A stretch of 64,000 bases of DNA, taken from positions 62,001 to 126,000 of the forward strand of contig NZ_CSTE01000004.1 in assembly GCF_001368915.1 (NCBI RefSeq), given 5' to 3'. The stretch is from Haloferax massiliensis. Lineage in GTDB: Archaea; Halobacteriota; Halobacteria; Halobacteriales; Haloferacaceae. Below, in pieces: positions 6,879 to 50,818 of this stretch (position 1 is the stretch's first letter; each line of letters starts with the position of its first letter). A program made the position numbers and the translations under genes. The notes under the pieces were generated by a model. The model did no database searches and had not been told where the DNA came from. It was given only the letters and a program-made list of their open reading frames with translations.

Positions 6879-7106
6879 GGGTGAGAGAAAGAGGCCCGAT
6901 GGTATAACCGCCAACGCTGGTTTTCTGGCTCAGAAAATAAGTCATCAGTGCCGTTGTTTCGAGGGAGGAGAGCGCCACCGAGGAGGAAGGTGAACGGTCT
7001 CGACGTGAGTACTGTCACATGATACGGTTCAGTTTAGCTGAATTGAGGCGCTAAGCCCCCTTCCTCAGCGAGCGCCGACCGAATGGGAGGCGCGATCGGG
7101 GGGATA

Positions 7107-7167
7107 CAGCGTTCACAAGAGCAGAGCTCTTGTGTGCGGACGAGACGCAAGCGTCTCGTCAACGCTG
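7107..7167. repeat. Nested palindrome: two perfect hairpins inside an outer stem
   Basis: The outer stem CAGCGTT (7107-7113) pairs with AACGCTG (7161-7167). Directly inside lie CACAAGAGC-aga-GCTCTTGTG (7114-7134) and, after 4 nt, GACGAGACGC-aa-GCGTCTCGTC (7139-7160). All three stems are perfect and would form a three-way junction. The second hairpin shares its CGAGACGC/GCGTCTCG stem with hairpins at 31184-31202 and 50476-50494. It lies about 160 bp before the TnpB remnant, so an IS200/IS605-type origin is plausible. Confidence 0.85.
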
Positions 7168-7326
7168 CACAGTTCTCATACACAATTCGGTGGCAAGCCC
7201 ACAGGCCCGCGCAGTCGGAGTGTCTATGCAGTAGGGTATTATTGACCGAACCCAATTCATTCACGAGGTCATCAGCGGGTTCACGGACAACTATGGTGTC
7301 GAGCTTGTAGGCAACTGTAGCAACAC

Positions 7327-16252: not shown

Positions 16253-16345
16253 ATCGAATCATTTTATTTCTCAGTTGTATTCTTTTTGATACTTGATTTC
16301 AACTGGCACTGTCTAGTTAAGCCAGTTTGAGGAACGAGCAGGTCG

Positions 16346-17041
16346 TTGAGTGTGTTTGGGATGAAGCTCGCAGACCTGCTCAGCGAGTGCTTTGCGACGG
16401 ATTTAGAAGAAACTTGGGAGCGTGAGCGGACAGCGACGCCCGTTAGGGCGTTCGCTGTCCAGCTCCACGCGACCGGATATTCGCTCAGAGAAACAAAACA
16501 GATTCTTCGATATCTCGGCGTTGAACGGTCTCATCAAGCTGTTTGGCAGTGAGTATATCGACTGGCTGACAGCGGTCACAACCCGCCTGAGGCAACGCCG
16601 AAGCGGGTTGCGGTCGACGAGACCGCTGTCAAAATCAATGGCGAGTGGTCTTGGTTGTACGCTGCAATAGACATCGAGACAAAGCTGATTCTTGACGTCG
16701 AATTGTTTGGACGACATGGTACCGATCCGGCTGCTGCGTTTCTCCATCGACTCTCGGAGAAACACGATCTCTCAGATGCTGTGTTTCTCGTTGATAGCTA
16801 CGGCTATCAGACTGCCCTCTCTCGATTAGGATTGAGCGGTCGGCTTGACTATGTAGAGCGAAACCTCATCGAAAAGTGGTTTCACACCCTCAAAATGCGA
16901 GTCGACCGCTTCCATAATTCGTGGGTGGGCAGTCACGGAAGCGTCCGCGAGTGATTCATAGAATTTGTGCAATACTACAATTTTCAGAGACCGCATCAAG
17001 CGCTCGATGGGCGAACACCGGTTGGGGAGGTCACTAACTAG
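16346..17041 (+). pseudogene. IS6-family transposase with two in-frame TGA codons
   Basis: The 231-codon frame is intact except for two TGA codons (16550-16552 and 16952-16954), both where the family has tryptophan (WQ-stop-VYRLADS, and SVRE-stop-FIEF). The product contains the DDE catalytic core: RVAVDETAVKINGEWSW, VFLVDSYGYQTALSRLG and ERNLIEKWFHTLKMR. The N-terminus ATDLEETWERERTATPVRAF and RETKQILRYLGVERSHQAVW form the HTH region. The two TGG-to-TGA changes suggest recent inactivation rather than long decay. Confidence 0.88.
16428..16460. repeat. Hairpin inside the IS6 transposase gene (unexpanded state)
   Basis: GGACAGCGACGCCC (16428-16441), loop GTTA, then GGGCGT-t-CGCTGTCC (16446-16460): a 14-bp stem with one bulged T. 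It encodes part of ERTATPVRAFAVQ. The same hairpin is disrupted by arrays of further hairpins in the copies at 30880-31337 and 49888-50716. Confidence 0.85.
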
Positions 17042-17120
17042 ACAGTGCCAACAGAGCTGAATATTCATTATTCTTCCACTATGCTATACAAGGTTATACG
17101 ACAAATCGTGAAGATGACAA

Positions 17121-30461: not shown

Positions 30462-30879
30462 ACCTCGTCTCCCGGAGTCGTCAGTAAGTATCGCTTGCCC
30501 GGCGAGAGAACTCAACCACGGACTGTTCGGTTGGTGAAGTACACGTGAGCACACGGGTCACCGTCGATTCTGTTCTCCTTCGAGACCACCTCTAGCCGAC
30601 TCACGCGAAATTGAAAGCGACCCCTCGACTAGCGGCGTCGGTTGCCAACACCTCGTTTGCTATCTGAGAATTTTCATCGGCCGCACACAGGTAAGCCTTA
30701 CATAATTATGTATGTAATTTACTGGACTGATTTCATCCGAATATCGATATTTTAGGCGCTGATGAGAGCGCTGCGTCGAGAGTTCCAATACGCGCGGGAA
30801 GACAGAATACATCGGGTTCTCCGACCGCACCTATCGGCGCGCCCCCCACGAACGGCGAACTCGCTTGGTGATTCATCTC
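30462..30879. other. Intergenic region with an isolated operator-like palindrome
   Basis: About 420 bp without a recognised gene. TTACATA-ATTATG-TATGTAA (30698-30717) is a perfect 7-bp inverted repeat in AT-rich DNA that looks like an operator or promoter, but the next thing downstream is IS6 debris. The gene it served may have been lost. Confidence 0.45.
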
Positions 30880-31337
30880 AGAGATAGTGGAGTCGCGAAT
30901 AAGGCGCTACAGAGACCGGTTTCGGCCACGCGCTAACTCGTGGCCTCGGACGAAGGGTCACGGGTGGGAGCAGAGCCCCGCTCTGTGGGGTGCCGTACTC
31001 GTATCGAACCGCGGATGGTCGTTCTGAGAGGAAGAACAGTCGAGATACCGCGAGTCGGCGTGTTGTGACCCCCCAGAACGCGTACACCCACCGAGAAACT
31101 GACCGACAGGCGTCTTTCGAGCCCACAAACTCGCTCTGCGGGTTTGGGACGTCCCCAGAAATCTTTGATTTCTGGTGGGCAAACGAGACGCTGCGCGTCT
31201 CGTCGCGTCGCCGTCCGCTCACGCTCCCAAGTCTCTTCTAAATCCGCTGCAAAGCACTCGCTGAGTGGGTCTGCGAGCGTTGTCCCAAGCAAACTCAACG
31301 ACCTGCTCGCTTCTCAAACTGACTTAACTAGACAGTG
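30880..31337 (-). mobile_element. Truncated IS6-family element carrying an inserted hairpin array
   Basis: The right terminus TTAACTAGACAGTG (31324-31337) and the transposase start are present on the minus strand: TTLADPLSECFAADLEETWE and RERTAT. At 31216, inside the hairpin that the 16305 copy has intact, the gene passes into non-transposase DNA made of consecutive palindromes. The rest of the transposase and the other terminus are absent, so the left boundary is not certain. Confidence 0.72.
30924..31202. repeat. Array of perfect hairpins
   Basis: From left to right: GGCCACG/CGTGGCC (30924-30945), CAGAGC-ccc-GCTCTG (30971-30985), GTTCT/AGAAC (31021-31037), the palindrome GGGACGTCCC (31146-31155), CCAGAAATC-ttt-GATTTCTGG (31155-31175) and CGAGACGC-tgc-GCGTCTCG (31184-31202). 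The last shares its stem with hairpins at 7141-7158 and 50476-50494. The outer arm GCGTCGCCGTCC (31205-31216) is the residue of the original transposase hairpin. Confidence 0.82.
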
Positions 31338-31678
31338 ATACATTTCGGACATGTCCGCGAATTTCGGTGCGCTAGTGAGAATCGCACTGATCGAGTGCAG
31401 ATAATGGTACGCAGCGGCCGGGTTGACGGCAAACTCGTCCGAACGAGCCGACACCAGGAATCACGCAACGACCCGTGAACGTCTCGTGCCATGTTATCTG
31501 GCCAGTTCAGGACGTGTCGCGAGATAAATAGCGGTCAGAAGATTACACCAGTACTAATGTAATCTGTGTCTCGGCTACTGCGGGTGGCCGCGCGACTATC
31601 CACCGCGGCAGTAACTCGTCACGCGACTTCGGCTCGACAGCGCTCATCGGAGGTGTCGAGAGTGGATAGCGACCTCGC

Positions 31679-49691: not shown

Positions 49692-49895
49692 TCAGATTTC
49701 GATAACGAATCGGATTTGACGTCGTTCCGGACTCCGCCCAGCCCCGGTCGATTGCTTCCCAACACCATCGGGGACGAACCGACCGTACAACGACCGTGTT
49801 GTTGTTAGTATAGTCGGTGACTGTCTGGGGCTGGTGGAGTCATCACGGTCATGACTGCTCGTGGACAACTCGGAATCTGTTTAATGCGGCACTGT

Positions 49896-50669
49896 CTAGT
49901 CACCCTCCTGAGCTGGCGTTCGACCGTCGAGCGACTGATGCGGTCGCTAAAAATCATAGTAATGAATAAATTCTGCAAGACACTGGCGGACGCTCAGTCG
50001 ACTGTCCACCCACGAATTGTGGAAACGGTCAACTCTCATTTTGAATGTGTGAAACCACTTTCCAATCAGGTTTCGGTCGGTGTAGTCGATCCGACCGTTC
50101 AACCCTAATCGAGAGAAGGCAGTTCGATAGTCAAAGGCATCAGCTAGAAATACCGTCTCTGAACAGTCGTGTTTCTCACAGACTCCGTGGAGAAACGCAG
50201 CCGCCGGGTCAGTTCCATGACGCTTGAACAACGCGACGTCAAGTGTCGAGGTCTATTGCAGCACACAACCAAAACAACTCACCATTGATTTTGACCGCGG
50301 TCTCGTCGACTGCGACCCGCCTCGGCTGCGCCTTCGGCGGGTCTGCAACGCTGTCAGACAGCCGACACATTTACTGAAAAATTGCTTGAAGCGAGCGTTC
50401 TACGCCGAGCAGCCGAAGAGTCGCTTCTGTCTCTCTGAGTGAAAGCCGGCAGCATGGAGCCGGACGGCGACGCGACGAGACACTTCGCGTCTCGTTCGCA
50501 TCTCGCAGGACCGCAGGTCCTGCGGACTCGTCGAAATCCAACGGATTTCGAGACACCAGAATTCTCCGGTTTCCGGGGACGCCCGAACGGGCGTCGCCGT
50601 CCGCTCACGCTGCCAACATTCAAGCGTAGCTGTGTCCAAACGCTCGTTGAGCAGGTTTGAGAGTCGCAT
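49896..50669 (-). pseudogene. IS6-family transposase, frameshifted and with in-frame hairpin insertion
   Basis: The start reads LSNLLNERLDTATLECWQRE, then RTATPVRA. In place of one residue, about 37 codons of palindromic sequence follow in frame and without stop, and the protein resumes as AVRLHAAG. A frameshift near 50448 leads to LRLLGVERSLQAIFQ, then a stop; RRVAVDETAVKINGELFW and FKRHGTDPAAAFLHGVCEKH follow, with a further break, and end at RNLIGKWFHTFKMRVDRFHN. Confidence 0.8.
50462..50602. repeat. Nested array of perfect hairpins in the transposase gene
   Basis: Outer stem GGACGGCGACGC (50462-50473) with GCGTCGCCGTCC (50591-50602). Inside: CGAGAC/GTCTCG (50476-50494), CGCAGGAC-cgcag-GTCCTGCG (50505-50525), CGAAATCC-aac-GGATTTCG (50532-50550), AGAATTCT (50558-50565), CCGG-ttt-CCGG (50566-50576) and GACGCCCG-aa-CGGGCGTC (50578-50595). 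The last hairpin and the outer stem share GCGTC, and together correspond to the single hairpin of the unexpanded copy at 16428-16460. Confidence 0.9.
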
Positions 50670-50818
50670 AGATCACTAGCTCTTCGACCTGCTCGTCCCT
50701 TAACTAGACGGTGCCGACGTGGTCCTCGGGTAGAGACTACATAGTTAGCATGTGGAGATTGTCTGGTATTACTAATTATTGCTCTTGCTTTTGCAGATAT
50801 GGTGGCACAGTCTCATTG

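Follow-up and report, generated by a model that had tools for sequence, protein, structure and literature searches.

Double-hairpin units of one family in an interrupted IS6-type transposase gene and in frame in genes of haloarchaeal relatives

A broken IS6-type transposase gene of Haloferax massiliensis runs into an array of perfect palindromes, and this array is built from double-hairpin units of one family rather than from random palindromes. The array lies in a stretch of 64,000 nucleotides (hereafter the window), which is part of an assembly of 4.0 Mb in 8 contigs; among the matches listed, the relatives and plasmids that match the window are haloarchaeal. The identification of the array with this family is very probably correct. 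Probably, too, the array marks an IS6 gene that took in non-autonomous double-hairpin units at its coding hairpin and was truncated later. The features concerned are collected in Table 1.

Table 1 Features of the window that bear on the interrupted IS6-type copies and the double-hairpin units
Feature	Position	Strand	Evidence
IS6-type 5' end, broken copy, N-terminus to RERTA	31205..31337	-	DNA match to full-length copy (C4:93205-93337), 89%; reading frame
Double-hairpin unit of type A at the coding hairpin	31150..31207	-	R1 71.9 bits, E 7.4e-21 in window; hairpins I3, I4
Damaged double-hairpin unit of type C, next in the array	31088..31151	+	R1 29.6 bits; recognisable from ~31110
Sequence with two further palindromes, neither IS6 nor recognised unit	30880..31087	.	
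Full-length IS6-type copy, uninterrupted coding hairpin at ~16428-16460	16306..17052	+	Sequence, DNA match, frame
Degenerate IS6-type copy, other arm of the same hairpin interrupted	49892..50714	-	DNA match, reading frame
Array of the 49892-50714 copy: type A unit whose linker contains an additional two-hairpin segment	50473..50581	+	R1
Further unit in an IS605-type end, site CG^CTGTATCCCC	7110..7164	-	R1 55.6 bits; sequence; same site in relatives

The preliminary description had a transposase that reads normally to RERTAT and then enters a string of perfect palindromes, and both sequence and frame agree with it: from 31337 to 31205, the minus strand encodes the start of an IS6-type transposase up to RERTA, reads ...DLEETWERERTAT and then departs from the transposase. 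All four palindromes named there are present, namely CCAGAAATC/GATTTCTGG at 31155-31175 and ACGAGACGC/GCGTCTCGT at 31183-31203, both with 100% complementary arms, CAGAGC/GCTCTG near 30971-30985 and GGCCACG/CGTGGCC near 30925-30945. The unit family accounts for only ~31088-31207 of the array. Since the remaining segment with CAGAGC and GGCCACG (30880-31087) has no other match in the same genome and no match to the covariance model of the family (R1, see below), the window IS6 copy, in addition to its insert, breaks off into unrelated DNA. The curated Rfam models gave no match up to E 1 on window 30600-31500, and a known structured RNA was dropped as the identity of the array.

In uninterrupted IS6 copies, the coding sequence RERTATPVRAFAV forms a long hairpin by itself. 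This hairpin is uninterrupted in all four full-length or near-full-length copies of the genome (C4:78306, C4:220070, C1:515595 and C1:514606). The full-length copy at 16306-17052, which begins GGCACTGTCTAGTTAA, is not an intact gene either, because it contains an in-frame stop (WQ*VYRLAD). Genome-wide, three copies are interrupted: the one at window 30880-31337, the one at window 49892-50714 and C2:1521062-1521937. Over 106 bases (window 31110-31215 against C2:1521711-1521816), the array of this last copy matches that of the 30880-31337 copy at 97% identity. The earlier statement that a second copy is hit in the same hairpin thus holds for the 49892-50714 copy. Here the unit sits in the opposite arm and in the opposite orientation, as expected if both hairpin arms offer the same site, and the net gain at the coding hairpin is +108 nt. 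R1 scores 24.5 bits at 50473-50525 and 27.2 bits at 50526-50581 of this array, and similar arrays occur in Haladaptatus plasmids. Two short internal-deletion IS6 derivatives (C2:132478-132796 and C2:1748304-1748621; L026-L029) share one deletion junction and have kept the coding hairpin. Elsewhere in the window, a unit variant with an odd second hairpin lies in an IS605-type end beside TnpB-like remnants (7028-7250).

Each unit consists of CGTT, a stem with a 3-nt loop, a linker of 6-8 nt (GCxCA-like), a second stem-loop and GGACG, and the ends CGTT and GACG are weakly inverted. The units are 55-60 nt in size, and the net insertion is usually 57 bp (59 nt minus the shared CG), or 19 codons, stop-free in most frames. 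Several non-genic units measure 55-58 nt rather than 59 in a length table whose search patterns missed some members of every site class. The stems fall into types A, B and C, which align as one family once C is reversed, and the covariance model R1 was built from 41 units, among them the window unit at 31150-31207 itself (via L001). In the alignment A1, 95.3% of the pair cells pair, both sides vary in 13 of the 18 pairs, and the covariation score is 0.287 against 0.088 for shuffled alignments, a value reached in 0/500 shuffles; A1 mixes the types, MAFFT has shifted type B by one base in stem 1, and the shuffles retain relatedness. When units were sought by hairpin 2 alone, with hairpin 1 not demanded by the search, 69 of the 82 units had a hairpin 1 stem of at least 7 bp, compared with 0.5% of shuffled segments. 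Two Aureimonas matches in which hairpin 1 is absent were taken as chance and dropped from this count. The arms covary whereas the loops vary freely, and the covariation could stem from one arm being copied to the other.

The family occurs in nearly all sampled members of the order. R1 matches 160 of the 170 genomes of the host family and 27 of its 28 genera (E 0.01 or better), and the copy numbers of ~25-33 per genome are lower bounds, with 32 candidates scored in each; the H. massiliensis genome has 11 matches, one site being counted on both strands. With window 31104-31345 as query, 104/170 genomes match, many over the array part only and mostly at 85-95% identity. At the matched sites, one and the same two-hairpin sequence recurs in surroundings that are otherwise unrelated. 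In a sample of the phylum, R1 matches 84/392 genomes: 80 of the 81 listed members of the Halobacteriales, from nine families (the 81 being counted from the listing on the assumption that its non-matching rows are sorted by kinship), and 4 of the 311 genomes outside the order, which match weakly (1.4e-6 to 8e-4). The sole listed member of the order without a match is G141. The spread over 160/170 genomes, the hairpin 1 stems and the stem covariation together rule out random palindromes.

The preliminary description spoke of a broken copy. That the hairpins must always disrupt their gene is not supported, as full-length transposases and TnpB proteins of relatives carry units in frame; this explains why, among seemingly "broken" copies of IS6 and TnpB, some turn out to be open reading frames with inserts. 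In one IS6 transposase (L127 of G038), the frame stays open across the unit and for 199 codons further. The TnpB C-terminus reads ...SES-TPVETALP... without an insert in 8 distinct sequences, and 18 distinct sequences have exactly 19 more residues at that point (a tally by eye: 22 strings of the insert class minus the empty L177 and minus 3 with another insert). Two different kinds of insert thus occur at the SES/TP point, the non-unit kind in 3 distinct sequences. This other insert (peptide TSSE...SDGLRKSL.DFR; L183, L298, L301 and L334) lies at the exact TnpB unit point and perhaps represents a second in-frame element family.

Cellular genes carry units as well. In seven genomes of one genus, the RlmE/FtsJ gene has no unit in five, a single unit in G050 and two units in G053. 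The G053 gene resembles the one-unit gene of G050 with additional sequence between the linkers that the two share, which suggests that hairpin modules may have been exchanged; the copying between hairpins raised in the preliminary description is suggested by this mosaic. An FAA hydrolase of G053 is longer by exactly 19 residues, which its six orthologues lack. Units are placed by an open frame and a family match only in DnaG primase, a GH3 glycosidase, an S9 peptidase (two units), an HHH_5 protein (two species), shikimate kinase (at the C-terminal end), a PGM/PMM protein, a proton-antiporter-type protein (in the C-terminal tail), a DUF58 protein (two units) and DnaK of Halarchaeum nitratireducens (in the C-terminal tail). 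Pfam assigned no family to 3/10 unit-containing open reading frames in one set and to 3/9 in another. The acidic 3' end of a dnaK or dnaK-like gene bears units in three genomes (L118, L283 and L349), and in L118 and L349 the reading frame stops inside the unit. At L118, where the dnaK identity was assigned by eye only, the left arm of hairpin 1 resembles the host's own GAC/GAG codons. Many units are intergenic, and the one at L246 lies upstream of a ribokinase gene.

Filled and empty sites were compared between species or between copies throughout. In the filled/empty IS6 pair of G092 (L114/L122), both flanks agree and the unit is added with zero host bases lost, at the junction ...GGCGACG^CCCGTCAGGG.... 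The empty-site comparison proposed in the preliminary description thus shows insertion and no block replacement in this pair, whereas the far side of the window copy enters unrelated DNA. Because CG (GACG at the IS6 site) is common to unit and target, the cut could lie anywhere in this overlap, and with CG at both unit ends as well as in the target, a 2-nt duplication is indistinguishable from none. TnpB-linked hairpin sites share less with the unit, e.g., CCCGCG^TCTTCAGG. The guide sequence of 4-5 nt that had been anticipated beside the hairpins was not identified, both ends sharing only CG. The unit contains no terminal inverted repeats of the kind found in MITEs of DDE transposons, and a MITE of a DDE transposon was rejected for lack of such transposon-related repeats.

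The preferred target suggested in the preliminary description stands for particular sites, namely the IS6 coding hairpin in several genera and the SES/TP point of TnpB. A general preference for hairpins is not supported: in the joined flanks of 50 distinct sites, enclosing pairs number 6.56, fewer than the 8.08 at control CG sites of the same loci, and this reading was dropped. The joined flanks of these 50 sites are slightly more stable in fold energy than the control CG sites (p = 0.047). The units are abundant in IS ends, hence the impression of hairpin seeking. CG occurs at -3,-2 in 21/50 sites (background 18%) and at +2,+3 in 15/50 (background 20%). This excess may reflect codon periodicity, and the target motif that we claim is CG alone.

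We consider that a unit enters at a CG dinucleotide with no host base lost, and that new units land beside or within earlier ones, producing the arrays; truncation of the IS6-type gene followed the insertion. Movement may proceed through a single DNA strand that folds into the hairpins, with a putative HUH-type enzyme, supplied in trans, cutting and joining it at CG. We propose this mode of movement tentatively, because recombination of a 57-bp double-stranded circle would be difficult and because CG stands at both unit ends. Units are found near tnpA of IS200/IS605 elements, yet within the ends of those elements. Since Y1_Tnp is present in 117/160 carriers and missing from 43/160, it is not required in every carrier today, and a Y1 transposase was rejected as an obligatory partner. 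It is also present in 4/10 unit-free genomes, and its association with the units is at most weak.

The main rival to single-strand movement is that the units do not transpose themselves but spread by homologous recombination, gene conversion or template switching between hairpins, with the arms kept identical by quasi-palindrome correction in replication. Such a process needs no enzyme, and genomes without Y1_Tnp bear many units; the mixed RlmE modules, with common outer parts flanking one linker in both G053 and G050, the nesting of units in the linkers of others, and the covarying arms with freely varying loops are also consistent with it. However, short homology would be needed for each new site, whereas the 57-bp units in unrelated genes share only CG, and no host bases were lost at the filled site of the G092 pair. 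We regard recombination as rather unlikely to be the main route. Still less credible is a single ancient insertion inherited by an IS6 lineage, with the differences between copies due to later decay. A tree was built from the transposase sequence that follows the hairpin, using 32/43 rows (14 with a unit and 18 empty, labelled by hand); 11 rows with long branches, truncations or no assignable state were left out, including L083 and L085, which look empty. On this tree, the unit state needs 7 changes, of which at least 4 are forced by well-supported (starred) branches, and one clade of the 14 unit-bearing copies is rejected (p-AU = 5e-33). The IS6 site therefore underwent repeated gain, loss or exchange, and the unit of the 49892-50714 copy, in the other arm and orientation, also speaks against one insertion. 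The tree gives no count of insertions, because losses, recombination and horizontal exchange register as changes too, and losses and exchange between copies could still lower the number. The A-C-B order common to the H. massiliensis copy at C2:1521650, G025 (L112) and Haloferax mediterranei pHME132 fits a shared ancestry, and inheritance or exchange within this lineage is its probable origin. Units, mostly of type B, also occupy another site of IS6 transposases, immediately ahead of (Q/P)xRVAVDE (L187, L328, L097, L087 and L335).

The closest known kinds of element are the Haloquadratum SMRs, REPINs and the Rickettsia palindromic elements, and SMR-A is the nearest archaeal description. The units might be SMR-A in a short form, or remnants of IS200/IS605 ends that resemble REPINs and are moved by TnpA, a reading that we hold possible but doubtful. 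According to the accessible part of the report on Haloquadratum walsbyi (PMC3119063), SMR-A is likewise haloarchaeal, very short, without a transposase and often found in IS605-type or PATE palindromes; many of our units lie in IS605-type ends near tnpA. SMR-A leaves no target duplication; for the units, a 2-nt CG duplication cannot be told from none. As described there, however, SMR-A is ~110 bp long, has prominent terminal inverted repeats and occurs in mobile elements only, whereas the units are ~57 bp, comprise two unequal hairpins and occur in frame in cellular genes as well. In addition, a search of the Haloquadratum plasmid PL47 with R1 gave no hit at E values up to 1, and the 43 carriers without Y1_Tnp argue against mobilisation by TnpA.

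The presence of the family in nearly all sampled Halobacteriales, and of RlmE genes with 0, 1 or 2 units as natural replicates in one genus, makes several questions testable in hosts that are cultivable and partly genetically tractable: how a DNA element is able to spread within important genes, which factor mobilises it, and whether selection or arm-to-arm copying maintains its stems.

Mitochondrial double-hairpin elements are likewise dispersed units of two adjacent hairpins; they are organellar, and their likeness to the haloarchaeal units lies in the two-hairpin plan, as judged from description. The units also have the plan of a REPIN, with two inverted hairpins, outer tags (CGTT/CGTC-like) and a non-autonomous nature, as outlined in the available text of PMC3733652, which records CGTC-tagged REPs in five bacterial phyla. 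They differ from these in stems, loops and the 57-bp in-frame insertion. Unlike REPINs, they lack a constant Y1/RAYT transposase partner, given the 43/160 carriers without Y1_Tnp, and they are not confined to extragenic sites, lying in frame in RlmE, FAA hydrolase, TnpB and IS6 genes, with many others intergenic. PATE elements are fused IS605 ends, with terminal-only haloarchaeal copies of ~52 bp in the portion of PMC3119063 at hand; PATE ends belong to IS605 elements, whereas the units sit within such ends as a separate sequence. In the open literature, judged by titles and the first lines of abstracts, we recognised no paper that describes palindromic elements lying in frame in haloarchaeal genes; this scope does not include most subscription journals or any supplements. 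In-frame mobile palindromes are reported mainly for Rickettsia in the consulted part of a review (PMC10969869), which describes alphaproteobacterial elements of ~150 bp, in frame in many unrelated protein genes and coding a conserved peptide. The units share in-frame insertion in unrelated protein genes with them and differ in length (~57 bp) and in being archaeal; this is a likeness by description, and a sequence relation is not expected. There is about an even chance that the units constitute an order-wide archaeal family of coding-compatible mobile hairpins, 57 bp long, moving as single strands, landing at CG, with covarying stems and in-frame peptides of 19 residues in proteins of replication (DnaG) and translation (RlmE), in a chaperone (DnaK) and in transposases, which would be an archaeal counterpart of the Rickettsia palindromic elements with a putative mobiliser of its own.
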